From a virus, in the IMG/VR virus record IMGVR_UViG_3300029955_000060, positions 1-41,965 of that record: a stretch of 41,965 nt of DNA. One strand, written 5' to 3'. Positions within the stretch are counted from its first letter, which is position 1. Each line of letters starts with the position of its first letter. Position numbers and translations under genes: made by a program. Under the pieces are notes generated by a model that saw nothing but the letters and a program-made list of their open reading frames with translations, did no database searches and had not been told where the DNA came from. Below are positions 4,208-40,462 of the stretch, piece by piece.

Positions 4208-4893
4208 TTGGCAGACCCTCCAGCCGGCGCGGGCGCGAGCTTGGCCTTCGCTAACGCCTTCTTGAACGATTCCACGTCGGGTTCCGGGATGTCCTTCGTG
4301 TTGGCAACCATGTCATGCCAGTTGAACGGGTCGGGCCAGATATAGAAATCCTCTGTCGATGAGGAAGCCTGCGCTGCGTGAATGTAGAACTTGAACCCGC
4401 CGTCCGACATCTTCTGGGCACGGATATGATAATCTATGACCCCGTTGTTATTTGAATCTTCTAGGTAACGCCAAAGGGTAGGGTTCTTGGGTTCTGGAAT
4501 CTCCACAAGCCGCATTTCATGCAGATTCTTCCAAAACCGTGCGTCCCCCACCGCCTCCTCGCAGGCGCGACGGCTGGCCAAGAGGGCGTCATTAGCTGCA
4601 TCATATACCGATTTGGAAACACTCGTCTCAAACGTCTTTCGGTATAGCTTAACGTCCTCCAATGCCTCGGCCACCTCGTTGCTCTGGCACCACTTCTCAA
4701 ATATCTTCAACCGCGCAATCTCCGCGTCCTTCGCCGCAGTCTCGCGCTCAACGGCGGCGCGGGTGTGGGCGGCGATGGCGGCGGCAACCTTGGCTGTGTG
4801 ATAGGGTTCAGCGTCAGCCAAGAAGCCAACATCGGAGCAAATGCGTGCGGCCAACTCGCGGTCCTGCGCGTCGGCGTCGGGGGTGGTGCTCAT
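4204..4893 (-). CDS. Hypothetical early protein with coiled-coil N-terminal half
   Basis: 229 residues. Residues about 30-110 are Ala/Glu/Lys-rich and probably helical (ERETAAKDAEIARLKIFEKW). The C-terminal half is mixed and acidic with aromatic residues (FYIWPDPFNWHDM). Not recognised. ATGA overlaps link it to the YqaJ-like exonuclease upstream and to the 92-residue gene downstream. Confidence 0.65.
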   Translation of the reverse strand: MSTTPDADAQDRELAARICSDVGFLADAEPYHTAKVAAAIAAHTRAAVERETAAKDAEIARLKIFEKWCQSNEVAEALEDVKLYRKTFETSVSKSVYDAANDALLASRRACEEAVGDARFWKNLHEMRLVEIPEPKNPTLWRYLEDSNNNGVIDYHIRAQKMSDGGFKFYIHAAQASSSTEDFYIWPDPFNWHDMVANTKDIPEPDVESFKKALAKAKLAPAPAGGSAK

Positions 4894-5504
4894 GATTCAA
4901 GTTCTCCTATGGCCTTTAGCGCGGCGTCGTAGCGCGACAGGAACGCGGCCAGCGCCTCCTGTAGCTTCGCCTGGATTGATTCATCGCGGTCCACGCGGAT
5001 AACGAGCGCGGGCAGGCGCAGGTTGTAGGCGACGAAGGTCCACGCGGGGGCGCCGGTTACGAGCATGGAGAAATGCACCTGCGCCAGATAGTCCTCTGGC
5101 ACGCGACCGTCCAGAAGGTAGCGGATTTGGTTCGGGTCCTGCGGGCACTTGATCTCAAGGCCCGTGCCGTCGTCCAGAAGGCCGTCAGGCGAACAGCCGG
5201 CGCGCCCGTCGTCCGTAGTCACGAAGCCCACGCGCCGCACCTTGCGCGAATGCGTGAACTCGAACCACGGAATTGCGATCGTCTCAAGGATCTTGCCCTG
5301 ATCCATGCCGAACGTGTTGAGCTGGTCCGGAGAGTAGCCGACGAGCTTCTCGGCCACTTTGCGGCACAGATATGTCTCCACGCCGTCACCCTTGCGCACG
5401 GCCCACTTGGGCGTAATCAGGGCGTCAACCTCGCTGGCCGTGACTACGCCGAGGCGAGCCGCGTACCACGGCTGGGACCCCTGTTCGCACGCGATGATTT
5501 TCAC
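4890..5504 (-). CDS. YqaJ-type (lambda exonuclease-like) recombination nuclease
   Basis: 204 residues. QGSQPWYAARLGVVTASE near the N-terminus matches the opening motif of YqaJ/lambda-exonuclease-like enzymes. The metal-binding core is visible as GCSPDGLL (Asp107) and LEIKCP (Glu117, Lys119), with a possible upstream Glu in GKILE (Glu74). Such enzymes resect double-stranded ends 5' to 3' to make single strands for an annealing protein. The partner is encoded immediately upstream (ERF-like, ATGA overlap), giving a complete single-strand-annealing recombination pair. Likely uses are repair, concatemer formation or genome circularisation. Confidence 0.85.
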   Translation of the reverse strand: MKIIACEQGSQPWYAARLGVVTASEVDALITPKWAVRKGDGVETYLCRKVAEKLVGYSPDQLNTFGMDQGKILETIAIPWFEFTHSRKVRRVGFVTTDDGRAGCSPDGLLDDGTGLEIKCPQDPNQIRYLLDGRVPEDYLAQVHFSMLVTGAPAWTFVAYNLRLPALVIRVDRDESIQAKLQEALAAFLSRYDAALKAIGELES

Positions 5505-6256
5505 CGGCCACCCCGCTTCTTCTGTAGGGCCTTGAACAGCCCCTCGTAGCGTGCGCTCCCGATCTCCTCGAACTTGGACGCCCCTGCGTACTTGAGGAAC
5601 GCGGGCACGTCGGCCTTAACCTCTTCGGCAAGCTCCCTGAGTGTCTGGGCTTGCTCAAAGGTTATGGGCTCGCCCTCGAGCCGTGCATCGTTCGCGTCCA
5701 TGGCCGACATGCGCGACTTTAGCCCGAACATCTTCATGTTCAGGTGCCGCCACGCGGTTGTCGCAGCGCCCGAGTCCGCAGCGGTCGCATCCTTCATGGC
5801 GTTTGTCGCCCCTGCGCGTACCGTGAACTCGCGCACCTCCTGGTGCCCCTCCTCGTGGATGAGGGTCATTTCCACGGTGACGCGGCCCTCCGCCTCGCGC
5901 TGGCCGAAAAGCGTCGTGAACCCGTAGGCCATCAGGTGAGGCTCCAGCTTCTTGGAAATCTCCTCCTCGGAGCAGTAGCGGTAGGCCACGCCGCCGCTGC
6001 GGTCCTTCGCTTCCTTGTCCACGTAAATTTCCGGCATGTTCTTGCGAAGCTGGAAAAGCGACTTAGCGAACAATGCCTTGGCGTCTATTGCGCGCTGCTC
6101 GCGGATCATCTGCATCAGATCCTTGGCGACGCCGACCCGCTCCGGGGTTAGGTCGGGCGACTGGAGTACGCGCTCAAGAAGCATGATTGGCGAGGGAGTC
6201 GGCTGCGCGGCCACAAGGCGCGCCTCGTTGTCGAGGGGGAGTTCGTCGGCTTTCAT
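5501..6256 (-). CDS. ERF-family single-strand DNA annealing protein
   Basis: 251 residues from the ATG at 6256, which overlaps the upstream stop as ATGA; a longer frame exists but starts inside the previous gene. The segment YRYCSEEEISKKLEPHLMAY (about 92-111) and SGAATTAWRHLNMKMFGL resemble the ERF core of P22 Erf-like proteins, where the second stretch is usually 'GsYarRYal...lGi'. The protein would coat and anneal single-stranded DNA made by the downstream YqaJ-like nuclease. The C-terminal region (about 205-251) is the expected variable tail. Confidence 0.75.
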   Translation of the reverse strand: MKADELPLDNEARLVAAQPTPSPIMLLERVLQSPDLTPERVGVAKDLMQMIREQRAIDAKALFAKSLFQLRKNMPEIYVDKEAKDRSGGVAYRYCSEEEISKKLEPHLMAYGFTTLFGQREAEGRVTVEMTLIHEEGHQEVREFTVRAGATNAMKDATAADSGAATTAWRHLNMKMFGLKSRMSAMDANDARLEGEPITFEQAQTLRELAEEVKADVPAFLKYAGASKFEEIGSARYEGLFKALQKKRGGR

Positions 6257-7404
6257 AGTGCAGCCACCTTCTTTTCGAGCCACGCGATGAACGACTCTGC
6301 CTGACGCTCGATCTCGCCTTGCAGGGTGTCGTTCTTGAGTTTCGGAATGGTGTGGCGGATCGTGGCCGCGTAGTTATTGACCTTCTCGGCATCTCCTGCG
6401 CTCTCGGCCTTGCGCTTGGCTAGTGCCTCGGCTGCCGCCTTCTTTGCCTCGGCGTCACGCTGGGCCTTCAACTCGGCCTCGACCTTCTCGCGGGCCGCAC
6501 GTTCCTTGGCTGCCTGCGCGTCCGCTGCCGCCTTCTCGGCTCTTGCCTTGGCCTCTATTGCCTCGCGCTCCGCCTTGGCCTTCGCCTCCACGGCAGCGCG
6601 TTCCATCGCGGCTTTGGCTGCGGCTGCCTTCGCTTCGGCGTCAGCCTTGGCCTTTGCCTCTGCGGCGAGCCTTGCGGCCTCCGCCCGTTCTGCCGCCAGC
6701 TTCGCTTCCGCTGCCTCGCGCTCCGCCTTGGCCGCAGCCTCTAGGGCAAGAGCCTCCTGACGCAGCTTATCGTTCTCGGCCTTGATGCGGGCTTCCTCAG
6801 CTATGCGGGCCTTCTCCGCCGCGATCCGGTCGGCTTCGGCCTTTGCCGCTGCGGCTTCCGACTGCTCTTTGGCGGTCTTGACCCCGACAAGCAAAGCCTG
6901 GAATGCGGGCTCGGCCATGTCGCGCACAGCGTAGAGAGCCACGTCCTGAACGTAGGGGGAGAGCGCGGCCTTCCTGCCGGCCTCTATCCCGTCCTTGCGC
7001 GCAACCTCGGCGCGCTCCGCCGTGTCCTCGGCGTCCTGAAGCGCCTTTTCGACCGGGGCTAGGTCCGCCTCAAGGATGTTGTAGAATCCGTCCACCGCCT
7101 TTCCGTAGGCGAGCGCTGTTGCCTTCTGCGCCTTGCGCACCTTGTCGCCCTCGATGCGAACCTTGCGGATAGCGAGGCGGCAGGCGCGGGCCTTCCTGAT
7201 TTCCGAGACGCACGTTGCGTCCTTGACGGACTCGGCCACGCCCACCGCGTCAGCGAGAACCTGGCGGGACTCGACGAACACGGGGCGGAACGCTGCGACA
7301 AGCGGCGTTGTTGAAGTCTGCTCAAGGCCGGTCTTTCCAGCATAGGCGACGAGCTGGGCCTCGACGGGCTCAACGATTTCTAGTGTCTGTGTTTCAGTTG
7401 TCAT
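6253..7404 (-). CDS. Coiled-coil protein upstream of recombination genes
   Basis: 383 residues from the ATG at 7404. A further-upstream start would overlap the previous gene extensively and add an unrelated basic stretch. Residues about 1-180 form a globular or helical domain; about 180-345 is a long Ala/Lys/Glu/Arg coiled coil; the last 40 residues (NNYAATIRHTIPKLKNDTLQ) look globular again. Proteins with this layout often lie beside ERF/RecT-type genes in phages and are of unknown function. The overlap with the downstream erf-like gene is ATGA and with the upstream gene 11 bases. The Ala-rich plus-strand frame over this region is a shadow. Confidence 0.7.
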   Translation of the reverse strand: MTTETQTLEIVEPVEAQLVAYAGKTGLEQTSTTPLVAAFRPVFVESRQVLADAVGVAESVKDATCVSEIRKARACRLAIRKVRIEGDKVRKAQKATALAYGKAVDGFYNILEADLAPVEKALQDAEDTAERAEVARKDGIEAGRKAALSPYVQDVALYAVRDMAEPAFQALLVGVKTAKEQSEAAAAKAEADRIAAEKARIAEEARIKAENDKLRQEALALEAAAKAEREAAEAKLAAERAEAARLAAEAKAKADAEAKAAAAKAAMERAAVEAKAKAEREAIEAKARAEKAAADAQAAKERAAREKVEAELKAQRDAEAKKAAAEALAKRKAESAGDAEKVNNYAATIRHTIPKLKNDTLQGEIERQAESFIAWLEKKVAAL

Positions 7405-7603
7405 GTTGGGGGATTGAAAACTTTCCGTAAATGCGCCGGAACCGTCCGTGCGAGTCTCGCTCGTTGTACCGCTTCGGCTGCCAAGAGGCGATGATGCGAT
7501 CCGCCGCGGCCATATCCGCCTTCCGCCGCTTCGCACGCTGCCAGAGCCAGTCCGCGAGGCAGGCCAGTGCGAAGGCGAGGAGCGTGAGGCCGAGGGAGAT
7601 CAT
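7394..7603 (-). CDS. Small membrane protein, 69 residues
   Basis: The start at 7603 is chosen because it overlaps the upstream TGA as ATGA; an earlier in-frame ATG at 7642 would lie well inside the previous gene. MISLGLTLLAFALACLADWL is a transmembrane or signal-anchor helix, followed by a basic cytoplasmic-type tail (WQRAKRRKADMAAADRII). Not recognised. Confidence 0.6.
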   Translation of the reverse strand: MISLGLTLLAFALACLADWLWQRAKRRKADMAAADRIIASWQPKRYNERDSHGRFRRIYGKFSIPQHDN

Positions 7604-8475
7604 GGCTTTAAGGCGGTCTCGGCGCACTTTTTGGTTTCGCACGCTTTCTTGATCGCTTGGACAGCCATTTCTAAGAAGAGAGAATGGGCGTCGGCGTAGG
7701 CGGCGTCGTCGGCGGCGGCGGCGTAGGCGGCGTAGGCGGAGGCGGCGGCGGCGGAGGCGGCGTAGGCGTCGGCGGAGGCGGCGTAGGCGGCGGCGGCGTC
7801 GGCGGCGGCGTAGGCGGCGTAGGCGGTCCTATAGACGCCCCATAAAATATCGCGGACGGATCGGGCTTCCCGCGTCGCAAGCTCCGCGCTCGCACGATCC
7901 GTCACTTCGTTTATGGCGCGAAGGCGGGCGGCTTCCGCAGGTCGCTTCGCACGGTCGCACATTGCCGGGGCAACTGTCCGCACAGCCCAATCCGCAAAGA
8001 AGAAGCCGCGCCTTGCGGTCAAGGCCTTCGAGGTAGCGGCCTTCTGGATCTCGGGCAGCATCTCGCGGACAATCTTCTTCCCCTCGTCGCCGTATCGCTC
8101 AGCGATCCTGTCCGCAAACCGCATCAGGACTGGGCACGCCGTCTTGCGTGCAACAGCAAGATGCACGTCCAGGTACTCGGGGCCGCTGAAAATACCGGCG
8201 CCCTTGAGCATCCTAGAATGCTTGGCCGGGTCCGCGAGCAGCTTGCCCAAGGATTCATAATGGCGGGCAATCACCTTCTTTTGCACGGCGTTCGCCTCGC
8301 CGCGAATAGTGACGTTATCGCTGTTCGTTCCCTCGGCCTCCACAAAGAAGGGTGACTTGTTTGGCTCGTTCTCGCGCCACTTGGCGACGCTGACGGCGGT
8401 TGAATGGGAGTTGGTGGGCACGTGGGCCACCGCTCCGTCAGAAGCCCGGACGCAAATCGAATGGAATTCGCACAT
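7600..8475 (-). CDS. Ala/Tyr-repeat protein, possibly Imm-5-like
   Basis: 291 residues. The N-terminal two thirds is a mixed domain with RRGFFFADWAVRTVAPAM and RAINEVTDRASAELATREAR. Residues about 215-265 are a low-complexity helix built from AYAAYAAADAA-type units, then a normal C-terminus. Helical Ala-repeat tails after an 'A.wA....' domain recall the Imm-5 immunity-like family found in many phages, but this is a resemblance only. The DNA below the repeat (about 7690-7830) is a GGCGGCGTA-type simple repeat, prone to slippage. Placed between a small zinc-binding-type gene and a membrane protein in the early operon. Confidence 0.6.
   Translation of the reverse strand: MCEFHSICVRASDGAVAHVPTNSHSTAVSVAKWRENEPNKSPFFVEAEGTNSDNVTIRGEANAVQKKVIARHYESLGKLLADPAKHSRMLKGAGIFSGPEYLDVHLAVARKTACPVLMRFADRIAERYGDEGKKIVREMLPEIQKAATSKALTARRGFFFADWAVRTVAPAMCDRAKRPAEAARLRAINEVTDRASAELATREARSVRDILWGVYRTAYAAYAAADAAAAYAASADAYAASAAAASAYAAYAAAADDAAYADAHSLFLEMAVQAIKKACETKKCAETALKP
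7690..7830. repeat. GGC/GTA simple-sequence tract inside the Ala/Tyr-repeat gene
   Basis: Irregular tandem triplets of ggc, gga, gtc and gta on the plus strand, read as Ala, Ser, Asp and Tyr codons on the minus strand. Copy number is likely to vary, and gain or loss of triplets keeps the frame. Confidence 0.8.
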
Positions 8476-9062: not shown

Positions 9063-9848
9063 TCAAGCCGCCACGTCGTCGCAGAATTCGCGCAGCCGGC
9101 GAATGACCGCCCGCGCCGTATGCTCGTCATTGAATCGCTCCTCCAGGCTCGCCCCCGTGAACTGCGTCGTGATGATCGTCGGCTTTCCCCAATTCGAGCG
9201 ATAGCGGAGCACCTTGAGCACGACGGCCTCCCGGCTCGCGTTCATCTTGTCGTTGCCCAAATCGTCTATCACGAGGACCGGCGCGTGCATCATGTCCCTC
9301 ATGTTCTCGTCGGGCATGTCGATCGATTCGACAAAGGTGACGCCGACCCCCAGCTCCATGAGCTGCCGCGTCAGGTGCCAAGCGGCCCTCGTCTTGCAGG
9401 TTCCGCTCTTGCCATGGATCACGAGCCCGCGGCCCGTCTTGTGGTCGTAGGATCGAACGCGCCTAATCAGCGCCTCGTTGCCCTTCCTCGAATCCCAATC
9501 GCTGCGGAACGCGGGCGGGCAAATGCGCTGCCACTGCTCATTCTGCTTCCTGCGCGTCTCCGTGTCGCCCTGGCTGTTGGCATAGCACGCCTCGCAGCAA
9601 TTGATGGGATACCAGCCCCGGCACCCTGCAATCTGGCGCCAAAGCGGGTCAGGCAACAGGCAATCGCAGACCTTGCAACGCCCGCCAAAGGGGTGCTTAC
9701 CCTTCGCGGGATCTTCTATGCCGGGCGGGAAAATATCGCCTAGAGCCTCGGCAAAGCTCATCGGCTCCTTGCACGTGCGCCCTCCAAGCTCGGCCTGCGG
9801 GGAATAAGGCTCCAACGCCTCAAACGGTATTTCGGGTTCAGAATCCAT
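9063..9848 (-). CDS. DnaC-like AAA+ helicase loader
   Basis: 261 residues. A Cys cluster (about residues 58-88, including CKVCDC and CCEAC) suggests an N-terminal zinc-binding module. The ATPase core follows: Walker A GKSGTCKT (146-153), Walker B VLVIDD (191-196), a sensor-1-like TIITTQF (224-230) and paired arginines near RRLREF (about 250) that fit a DnaC/IstB-type arginine finger. Such proteins load the host replicative helicase DnaB at the phage origin. A strong Shine-Dalgarno sequence (GAGGAGGAA) precedes the start. The gene overlaps the initiator-like gene by 11 bases, an order (initiator then loader) similar to lambda O and P. Confidence 0.85.
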   Translation of the reverse strand: MDSEPEIPFEALEPYSPQAELGGRTCKEPMSFAEALGDIFPPGIEDPAKGKHPFGGRCKVCDCLLPDPLWRQIAGCRGWYPINCCEACYANSQGDTETRRKQNEQWQRICPPAFRSDWDSRKGNEALIRRVRSYDHKTGRGLVIHGKSGTCKTRAAWHLTRQLMELGVGVTFVESIDMPDENMRDMMHAPVLVIDDLGNDKMNASREAVVLKVLRYRSNWGKPTIITTQFTGASLEERFNDEHTARAVIRRLREFCDDVAA

Positions 9849-10563
9849 TTTTGTGTTCCTCCTCGGTTGTTTCGCGGCGCTGCCAAGGTAAGCGACTCGA
9901 ATGCCTCTTGTCGTCGGCTGTCTCTGGTTCTCGAATCCCCTGCCAGCCCTTTGCCACCGTGAATTTGATCGCCGCCACAGCGCGCTCCTCGCCCATGTCC
10001 TTTAGTTCAAGCAAGCATCTCTTTCTGGAAGTGGGTCGCAGTGGCTTCTTTAGCTCAACCCTGTGTTGCTCGAATTCCTTCCACACCTCGGCAAACCCCT
10101 CCGATCCGAAAGGCAAAGATTCAGATACAGATACAGATACAGATGCACTTGTTGACTCTTTGTTGACACCTGTTGACGGTTGTTTACTTGTGTTGACAGA
10201 TTGTTGACGGGTCCGGTGCTCCCGTTGCTTCTGTGCCAAGTACTCACGCCGCTCATCAGCCGACATGAGCCTGCGGTACTTCTCATGGTTAAGGATTCGC
10301 CAGCCTCCCTCAACAACCTCGATACGGCGCCCCTCATTGTCCGGCGTTCGGCTGTCAGGATCAGGCCCAAGAAACTTGTCGATCGCCCGCCTGCAAACCT
10401 CAACGTCGACCCTCGCCAAATGCGCGAGCCCTGGCACCGTCGCCCCGACAATCCCCCACTTGTCCTTGAGCGCCAGCATGGTGATCCAAACTATGCGCGT
10501 TTCATCCGGCTCGGCCCAAATCGTAGAGGTGATGATCTCCGAAAACAGCTTCGTGTAGCCCAT
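9838..10563 (-). CDS. Replication initiator-like protein (O-type), carries iterons in its gene
   Basis: 241 residues. The N-terminal 100 residues (MGYTKLFSEIITSTIWAEPD, later TVPGLAHLARVDVEVCRRAI) look like the winged-helix domain common to phage replication proteins that sit upstream of DnaC-like genes. A low-complexity Ser/Thr/Val/Gln linker (about residues 118-150, SVNTSKQPSTGVNKES then SVSVSVSES) follows, encoded by the phased TGTTGAC repeats and a CAGATA tract. The C-terminal domain (about 155-225) is helical and basic. By analogy with lambda O, the protein would bind iterons inside its own gene and recruit the loader. It is the first gene of the leftward operon. Confidence 0.75.
   Translation of the reverse strand: MGYTKLFSEIITSTIWAEPDETRIVWITMLALKDKWGIVGATVPGLAHLARVDVEVCRRAIDKFLGPDPDSRTPDNEGRRIEVVEGGWRILNHEKYRRLMSADERREYLAQKQREHRTRQQSVNTSKQPSTGVNKESTSASVSVSVSESLPFGSEGFAEVWKEFEQHRVELKKPLRPTSRKRCLLELKDMGEERAVAAIKFTVAKGWQGIREPETADDKRHSSRLPWQRRETTEEEHKNGF
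10122..10145. repeat. Hexamer tract CAGATA x3 + CAGATG
   Basis: Units at 10122, 10128, 10134 and 10140, directly beside the iteron array and within the replication gene, where they encode alternating Ser and Val. This stretch is more A/T-rich than the flanks and could be part of an origin's unwinding region. Confidence 0.85.
10150..10208. repeat. Phased iteron array TGTTGAC (candidate replication origin)
   Basis: On the plus strand TGTTGAC occurs at 10150, 10161, 10171, 10191 and 10202, with a one-base variant TGTTTAC at 10181. The spacings are 11, 10, 10, 10 and 11 bases, about one helical turn each, so all six sites face the same side of the DNA. The array lies in the low-complexity linker of the initiator-like gene. 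This matches the logic of lambda-type origins, where the initiator binds repeats inside its own coding sequence; the function here is inferred. Confidence 0.75.
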
Positions 10564-10707
10564 GCTTCTAGTCAGAACAGCCCGTAAACACTGTCAACAT
10601 TTGTCAACACTCTTGACAAAGGATCTCAATTAACAGACAAACAATCTCAACCCACTTCACAGGGGTTTTGATTTGACACGCAAACCATTCGCGCCAAAAG
10701 CCAGACC
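10564..10707. promoter_or_regulatory. Divergent control region with inverted iteron copies
   Basis: 144 bases between the leftward replication operon and the rightward morphogenesis operon. GTCAACA, the reverse complement of the iteron, occurs at 10593 and 10603, and the variant GTAAACA at 10584. TCTTGAC at 10611 is one mismatch from the iteron in the opposite orientation. The sites could let the initiator or another regulator control the early promoter. TTGACA at 10673-10678 resembles a -35 box for the rightward operon but has no good -10 partner at normal spacing. Confidence 0.6.
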
Positions 10708-37997: not shown

Positions 37998-40462
37998 TGG
38001 CCAGCACGTCCAACTTTGCGCTAGCCTTTAACCAGACCGAGGTCCGCTCGGCTGGGGCGCATAGCAATGCGCAGACCCAGCAGCCGGCGTCAGGCGGAGG
38101 CGGTGGGGGCGGACCGCCTACGGGTGCCGCTGGCGGAGACTTAGCCGGAACGTACCCCAATCCTACGCTTGGAGCGATCGGCTCCGCGACGGGGCCGCTG
38201 CCGTCAACTGCAGCTAGGGTCCCGGTTGTCACCATTGACACGAAGGGTCGCGTCACTGCTTTGACTGACGAGGCTATCAACGGAGTGCCCTATGCGAACA
38301 TAACGGGGACGCCTACTTCCCTCCCGCCTAACGGCAGCGCTGGCGGAGACTTAGCCGGAACGTACCCCAATCCTACGCTTGGAGCGATCGGCTCCGCGAC
38401 GGGGCCGCTGCCGTCAACTGCAGCTAGGGTCCCGGTTGTCACCATTGACACGAAGGGTCGCGTCACTGCTTTGACTGACGAGGCTATCAACGGAGTGCCC
38501 TATGCGAACATAACGGGGACGCCTACTTCCCTCCCGCCTAACGGCAGCGCCGGCGGGGACCTGACCGGGACGTATCCCAACCCGAACGTGCAGGCGATCA
38601 ACGGACAGAAGCTCACCGCACTGGCCAACGGCATACTGACAAACGTGCTCGGCGTTCCCTCGGTCATCGTGCAGCCCACCGGGGCCGTCGTTGGCACAAC
38701 GGATGTGCAGACTCTTACGAACAAGAGCATAGCGGCGAGCGAGGTGAACACCGGCACCCTTGGTGCGGCACAGATGCCCGCCCTTACGGGTGACGTAACG
38801 ACAACGGCTGGGGCTGTTGCAACCACTCTGGCTACGGTCAACACGGTGACTCCCGGCTCCTACCCCTCAAGCGCGGCCCGCGTCCCCACGTTCACCGTGA
38901 ACGGCAAGGGCTTGGTGACGGCATCTGCTGATGAGGCGATCAATGGCGTTCCCTATGCGAACATAACAGGGACACCCTCAAGCCTTCCCCCAAACGGACC
39001 GGCGGGAGGGGACCTGACGGGAACATACCCGAACCCCACTGTAGCCAAAGTAAACGGTGCGGCGATCCCTGCCAACGCTGTCCTAATATCGAATAGCAGC
39101 GACCAGATCGTCTCTGAAGTCAGTGTGTTTGATGTCATGGCATACGGGGCAACGGGTGACGGCTCCGGGGGCGGTGGCGGAACGGCTGACAATACGGCGT
39201 TCGTCAACGCTCTGGCAGCCGCCATCACTTATCTTGGCACCAGTTCCCGAAGGGCGAAGCTACGCATTCCTGCTGGAACGTATAAGGCAACCGCGAGGTA
39301 CACAGCTACACTTCCCACGACGGCAGCCGGTCTTACAATCGAGGGCGACGGAGCCGGTTCATCCGTTATTATCTGGGAGTCGGCATCTGCTGGAAACAGC
39401 GGGTTTGCGATCACGCTTCAGTCGTCGCAGGGAGCCATGCCCAATACATCGCCCCTTACCATCAAAGGGCTTACCTGCGTCACGAAGGCGAACAACGTGG
39501 ATGACTGCTTCACGGTCTCGATGCCAGACTCGGCGTACACGCAGCAGCCCTTCTCGGTGTTCGAAGACTTGGCCTTCTGCGCCTACACAACTGGTGGCAC
39601 GCTCTTCAAGTCGTGCTTCAACATCACTAATCCGCAGTTCTGCCATTGGCACAGGATTATCGGAAACGCTGTGGCGGGCATCATCGCCTCCATATCGGGC
39701 TCCCAGAGCCTGGACGGCCTATGGGTCACCGACTCCTACTTCGTCACAACCAACAGGTGCTTGGACTTCGAGGGAGGCTTAACGGGCTTCCAGACTGTGG
39801 TCATCAAGGACTCGATGTTCATTAGTTCATCCACTGACTGCATCTACGAGACCGGAGCGGGCGCCTCGGGTGGAGCGGAAGACTGGGTTATCGACAACAA
39901 CTATATACTCACGCGCGGGTCGGCGACATATGGCCTCTCCATCAACGGCATGGCGGGGAACATGTGGATAACTGACAACGACTTTGACTACACGGCTGGG
40001 GAGGGAGGCTGCATCTACCTTCCCACAGGCGAGCGTCACGTTATCAGAGGCAATGAGTTTGCTGGTGGCGGCGGAGCGGAAATAGCGATCTTCCTTGCCA
40101 ACGGAGGAAGCGTTGCCCTGTGCAAGATCCACGACAACAACTTCTCCAACTTCGCGCACGACATCACCATTGGGACGAACGGATCGGACATCTGGACACA
40201 CCACAACACCTTCACCAATGGAGGCTCTTCAAACTACAGTCGCGCTCCTGTCCTCTCAGATTCTGGATTCAGGAACCTGTATGAAGACATAGCCGTTGCT
40301 GTTGCTGCACTTCCGGCTGTGGCCAACGCACCTACGGGGGTAAGGCTTTTCGTCAACAACTCTAACGCCACCCTCGCCGCAGGAATAGGGGCTGTCGTTG
40401 CCGGAGGTGGTGCAAACATCGTCCCGGTTTTCAACGACGGCACAAACTGGAGAATCGGATGA
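37997..40462 (+). CDS. Tailspike with pectate-lyase-like beta-helix
   Basis: 821 residues from the ATG that shares one base with the previous stop (TAATG). A Gly-rich linker ([12 protein letters not shown]) leads to shaft modules of about 70 residues ([17 protein letters not shown] ... [14 protein letters not shown]): two exact copies, then degenerate ones. [28 protein letters not shown] starts a pectate_lyase_3-type beta-helix (about 380-760) that would cut or bind surface polysaccharide. The end ([20 protein letters not shown]) is a short beta domain as in other spikes. The substrate cannot be told from sequence. Confidence 0.8.
38128..38550. repeat. Exact 210-bp tandem duplication in the tailspike gene
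   Basis: Bases 38128-38340 and 38338-38550 are identical, with a period of 210 bases (70 codons). Synonymous positions are also identical, so the duplication is recent or is kept uniform by recombination. Later copies (from about 38551 and 38851) are diverged. Confidence 0.95.

Follow-up and report, generated by a model that had tools for sequence, protein, structure and literature searches.

Positions 10117–10208 of a 41,965-base uncultured virus record, analysed here over its full length as the window, most probably form a phage replication origin that lies within the codons for the linker of its own initiator. On this reading, to which we assign a probability of roughly 0.8, the initiator would bind the site through a basic helix, an adjoining tract would melt and a helicase loader would bring in the helicase. 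The iteron array, its helical phasing, the constraint at the DNA level, the matching sites upstream of the gene, the covariation between helix and motif, and the replication-gene context were each computed directly.

The initiator gene and its neighbourhood

The initiator is an O-like protein of 241 residues encoded on the minus strand at 9838–10563, assigned from its open reading frame, a match to phrog_678 and AlphaFold2 models. The match, to 'replication initiation O-like' (E 4e-7), covers only residues 115–225, comprising the linker and the C-terminal domain. The models (pLDDT 83 and 87) place a winged-helix domain at residues 14–90, a long basic helix at 93–122, a linker predicted to be disordered at 123–154 and a helical C-terminal domain at 155–205; the iteron array is encoded in the linker. 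The next gene downstream (9063–9848, minus strand) encodes a DnaC-like helicase loader of 261 residues (phrog_50, E 6e-18). The first-pass annotation had called the gene initiator-like, and the O-like match together with the adjacent loader bears this out. The window initiator had no match in Pfam, and fold searches of the PDB returned generic winged-helix matches only, all with E above 0.08.

Between the winged-helix model and TubR there is a weak resemblance (6tey; TM 0.53 on the target, E 0.68). This would fit a centromere-like partition site for a ParR- or TubR-like, filament-forming protein, and plasmid partition proteins likewise recognise direct repeats spaced by about one turn. We nevertheless hold such a site to be very unlikely, since the genes nearby code for helicase, loader and primase and not for a partition motor, and the protein matches replication families.

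Cumulative GC skew reaches its minimum at 10–12 kb in the window; because the genes switch strand at the same position, we did not count this as evidence for an origin. Elsewhere in the window, an ERF-type annealing protein and YqaJ exonuclease pair is encoded at 4890–6283, downstream of the replication genes; GGC-rich repeats of 6, 9 and 15 bp occur at 7687–7826 within a leftward ORF (7600–8475) that has no family match; and a large rightward ORF contains a tandem repeat of a 210-bp unit (2.2 copies, 97% identity) at 38128–38580.

Six helically phased iterons in the linker codons

The first-pass annotation had described six TGTTGAC-type sites, 10–11 bases apart, within the initiator gene, and a motif search recovered each of them at the same position. 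On the plus strand at 10150–10208, TGTTGAC begins at 10150, 10161, 10171, 10191 and 10202 and the variant TGTTTAC at 10181, giving spacings of 11, 10, 10, 10 and 11 bp. Exact TGTTGAC occurs 12 times in the 42-kb window, where 4.0 copies are expected and no shuffle reached 12; the initiator gene or its promoter region holds seven of the twelve. The six sites fall in all three codon phases (1, 0, 1, 2, 0, 2), and the linker peptide is therefore not repetitive. When the linker peptide was synonymously re-coded 100,000 times, with the codon usage of the gene itself or of the family, six sites never arose; the maximum was five, reached two or three times. Chance and protein constraint are thus excluded as the source of the six-site array. 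Not every iteron is indispensable, because a relative with 98% identity has lost one of the six through a change of TGTTGAC to TGGTGAC.

A family of initiators with phased arrays

A first scan of viral contigs returned 65 relatives and later ones 242 to 294 each, of which 80 were kept every time. A further 16 loci came from metagenome-assembled genomes titled Verrucomicrobia, Planctomycetota, Acidobacteria, Gemmatimonadota and others; one Gemmatimonadota contig, JAOTVV010000018.1 (loci L112 and L113), has two initiator-domain matches, near its two ends. The relatives were reduced to 120 non-redundant genes and 56 held-out genes. The first ~117 residues of the initiator start with a strongly conserved YTKLFSSI motif. 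This N-terminal domain had no match in 50,697 phage records or 72,556 plasmid records, so that no experimental precedent was found among named phages or plasmids, and a search of the literature found no description of the family. Among 48 genes sampled downstream of the initiator in relatives, 30 match a DnaB-like helicase family and 7 a DnaC-like loader family, and primase families occur there too.

Across the linkers of the 120 genes, distances between identical 6-mers peak at 10, 11, 21, 31–32, 42, 53 and 63 bp, which is the helical period of DNA, ~10.5 bp; the strict phasing noted at first pass for the window thus extends to the family. We counted 652 6-mer pairs at 10 or 11 bp in these linkers, compared with a mean of 41 (maximum 72) when codons were resampled gene by gene and with 16 apiece for two control coding regions. 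A chain score at the 95% level of the null was reached by 75 of the 120 genes, about 45 lying under the array threshold. The iteron itself varies by lineage (GTTGAC, CGTTAC, GGGAC, CGTGAC, TCGGAC, GCTTAC, GTCCAC, GTTTAC and more), nearly always in the form NNNNAC. Conserved residues over scrambled repeats, which the first-pass annotation had held to speak against its reading, are the opposite of what we observed: residues and motif change, and the geometry of the array is kept.

A search by DNA pattern yielded 27 contigs, at least 8 of them with this initiator family; several of the remainder, seemingly unrelated, were excluded. In a 363 kb phage contig (L019), five exact tandem TGTTGACAAC units with 10-bp spacing lie at about 5904–5970 on the minus strand, in a seemingly unrelated context.

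A hexamer tract beside the iterons

The CAGATA tract that had been remarked beside the sites was located by repeat search at 10117–10147; it has a period of 6 bp and is a putative unwinding element. Calculation of duplex stability identified it as the weakest 30-bp stretch of the initiator gene (−1.16, compared with a mean of −1.48). A period-6 tract is present in the genes of 87 of the 120 relatives, usually within 15–20 bp after the iterons, and in 24 of 62 relatives, where 5.5 are expected, no other 30-bp duplex of the gene is weaker. Codon choice within the relatives' tracts is close to fixed: alanine is encoded by GCA in 97% of cases (18% elsewhere), threonine by ACA in 98% (22%), proline by CCA in 100% (23%), valine by GTA in 93% (17%) and aspartate by GAT in 89% (37%). 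The hexamer tract is constrained at the DNA level. In the window it lies on the opposite strand from that in nearly all relatives, with TCTG on the coding strand, so that its function may be strand-independent; the inverted tract encodes SVSVSVSES, and those of the relatives encode AE/TD repeats.

Fifteen relatives are short (under 165 residues), most stopping before or in the linker. In these the tract is found in flanking DNA in 9 of 15 cases, compared with 4 of 160 long relatives (Fisher p 9e-9); 131 of the 160 long relatives carry it inside the gene. Among the short relatives it lies upstream of the gene in L142, L187, L183, L083, L357 and L092 and downstream, past the stop codon, in L084, L256 and L354. 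Most of these tract-bearing flanks also carry iterons, and in L084 the downstream tract is accompanied by a GTAGAC array. Of all the evidence, these natural relocations argue most strongly that the element works as DNA.

The same observations bear on a simpler origin of the repeats, in a low-complexity protein linker or in codon slippage. The linker is predicted to be disordered, and period-6 tracts can arise by slippage. However, codon resampling does not reproduce the repeats, the codons of the tract are nearly invariant, and the tract also occurs in non-coding DNA; we give this explanation next to no credence. The suggestion at first pass that the linker residues are dictated by the DNA held up accordingly, as both codon resampling and tract codon choice indicate that the DNA pattern, more than the amino acids, is what has been conserved.

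A further iteron array ahead of the start codon

Our motif search revealed a further array at 10584–10609, 21 to 46 bp before the initiator start codon, which had escaped the first-pass annotation, as had the recognition helix described below. Its sites, on the minus strand and thus in the opposite orientation to the linker array, are TGTTGAC (10609–10603), TGTTGAC (10599–10593) and TGTTTAC (10590–10584), separated by aaa and ag; the array is a putative operator or second origin site. In the 75 genes that reached the chain-score level, the 150 bp upstream contained a mean of 1.11 copies of the gene's own motif, compared with 0.10 in the upstream regions of phages with other motifs, and 42 of the 75 had at least one copy. 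The 83 copies observed exceed the maximum of 50 found over 20,000 re-pairings, and far fewer were present in control regions and in the downstream DNA of the same genes. Recognition of the linker and upstream sites by one lineage-specific protein would fit these data.

Because each phage's motif tends to recur a short way ahead of its initiator's start codon, usually no more than 60 bp away, the arrays might be operators only, through which the protein controls transcription of the replication operon while replication starts elsewhere. We regard this as unlikely. The larger array and the weak-duplex tract occupy the central part of the gene, which is hundreds of base pairs from the promoter; where the linker is missing, the tract can sit downstream of the gene, as in the three short relatives listed above; and the origins of lambda and P22 occupy the same place in their initiator genes.

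Covariation of the probable recognition helix with the iteron

In a first covariation test the iteron motif was coupled most strongly to residues 109 and 112 of the initiator, and after stratification for domain identity the strongest columns were 112, 38, 109 and 115. Within the basic helix (codons for residues 105–117 at 10213–10251, minus strand) high values fall at 105/106, 108/109, 112/113 and 115/116, and at 107, 111, 114 and 117 the signal almost vanishes. This periodic i, i+3/i+4 profile scored 1.47 after stratification, compared with a null maximum of 0.39, and is what would be expected if one face of a helix made the contacts. Residues outside the basic helix also correlate with the motif after stratification, residue 38 strongly and 40 and 51 as well, and the signal at residue 38 weighs against the reading.

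The residues that covary across relatives, 109, 112 and 113, map onto particular bases of the motif. Base −3 tracks residue 112, with arginine accompanied by G in 55 of 57 cases, lysine by T in 22 of 22, tyrosine by T in 11 of 12 and alanine by C in 5 of 6. Bases −2 and −1 track residues 109 and 113, the residue pair N,Q going with TT, L,Q with TG, E,K with GG and K,Q with CC. From these three residues the exact core motif was predicted for 18 of 31 held-out genes, compared with 11 from domain residues 1–98 and 4.2 at random. Predictions for short relatives were counted where the training set contained the residue triplet three or more times; in all four such cases (L187, L183, L083 and L357) the relocated array contains the predicted motif. 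The prediction failed for L354, for which it rested on one training gene.

At least 49 motif switches were placed on the initiator-domain tree. In a tree test on independent pairs, in which few pairs were well supported and significance was not reached, 112 R/G, 109 L/TG and 113 Q/T lean in the predicted direction; when K and R at 112 were pooled against T, the same few pairs showed no trend, and the code would predict none. Shared descent, or hitch-hiking, contributes to the correlation between helix and motif, because the two are close neighbours. The repeated switching also bears on whether the array is read by a host factor such as DnaA instead of the phage protein. Host-factor sites do occur in the origins of several replicons, yet the motif has switched at least 49 times and follows residues of the phage protein, which makes a host reader highly improbable. 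On balance we favour the view that a large family of uncultured phage initiators reads its origin by a bZIP-like basic helix with a simple amino-acid-to-base code, in which residue 112 would pair with base −3 and residues 109/113 with bases −2/−1 of NNNNAC. This code would have been rewritten dozens of times with its target array in the adjacent codons, giving phages private, mutually incompatible origins.

Proposed mechanism and implications

From these features we infer physical binding, melting, loading and origin activity. Subunits of the initiator would sit on the 7-bp iterons at one per turn of the helix, lined up along a single face of the DNA, and bind through the basic helix (residues about 100–122), which comes after the winged-helix domain. 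The nucleoprotein array so formed would melt the adjoining period-6 tract, and the DnaC-like loader encoded nearby would bring in the replicative helicase. The initiator would also bind the promoter-region array, where it probably represses its own gene or ties the gene to the origin. Because the recognition helix and its target sites lie within about 50 bp, switches of specificity may travel as one cassette.

If this is correct, what textbooks present as a single case, the lambda ori within gene O, becomes a family with more than a hundred natural variants, whose origins and recognition helices diverge in concert. Co-evolution of initiator and origin would then be directly testable, as swaps at three residues should re-target the protein to predicted iterons. 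The 10.5-bp array together with the CAGA hexamer tract would offer a sequence signature for origins in uncultured phages, and the locus is a clear example of selection on DNA prevailing over protein sequence within a coding region.

Comparison with known systems

Lambda ori has its iterons in the middle of gene O, in the linker between the DNA-binding N-terminal and the C-terminal parts of the protein and beside an easily melted tract, with the loader gene P next (PMC7466680). Three features of this type of intragenic origin, which lambda shares with its lambdoid/Stx relatives, are found in the window: iterons inside the linker of the initiator gene, a candidate melting tract beside them and an adjacent helicase or loader gene. 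That the initiator would also bind its iterons is suggested by the covariation of helix and motif. The lambda-like layout with shorter units that was proposed at first pass is thus upheld, with iterons of about 7 bp at 10–11 bp spacing here, compared with 18 bp at 20–24 bp in lambda. The tracts also differ, being AT-rich in lambda and a GC-containing hexamer repeat in the window's family. Homology to lambda O was rejected for the whole profile (hhalign probability 0.2%), and none of 84 family members matched Phage_rep_O in Pfam.

P22 likewise has an origin annotated inside its initiator gene 18. The N-terminal domain of P22 gp18 and HK97 O is unrelated to that of the present family, and their repeat spacing is 14, 20 and 24; homology to P22 gp18 was also rejected for the whole profile. 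Some relatives (for example L080) have C-terminal domains homologous to those of HK97/P22-type O proteins, which points to modular exchange around the origin.

The basal unwinding system of bacterial oriC consists of DnaA boxes and DnaA-trios (PMC6669920). There, as here, initiator boxes lie directly beside a tract of short repeat units in fairly constant geometry. The likeness is in layout only: the oriC units are trinucleotides and those described here hexamers, and the present initiator is unrelated, lacks an ATPase domain and has its array inside a gene. In iteron plasmids of the RepA/Pi/RepE type, direct repeats at the origin are the target of the initiator, which often regulates its own gene through promoter sites as well, an arrangement that the linker and upstream arrays resemble. 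The plasmid iterons are longer (about 17–22 bp) and lie outside the coding region, in contrast to the intragenic array of the window. The plasmid records yielded no relative, and neither the window protein nor 84 family members matched a Rep family in Pfam.

Initiators with other N-terminal domains also have short linker repeats in isolated phages, namely GTGCACG in Pseudomonas phage MR15, CTGGTC in FP_Lagaffe and GTGCGG in Kapi1, and intragenic origins are therefore probably widespread. For the window, the comparisons above favour, as the best reading, a lambda-like intragenic origin that would belong to a separate family of initiators whose recognition code can be read.
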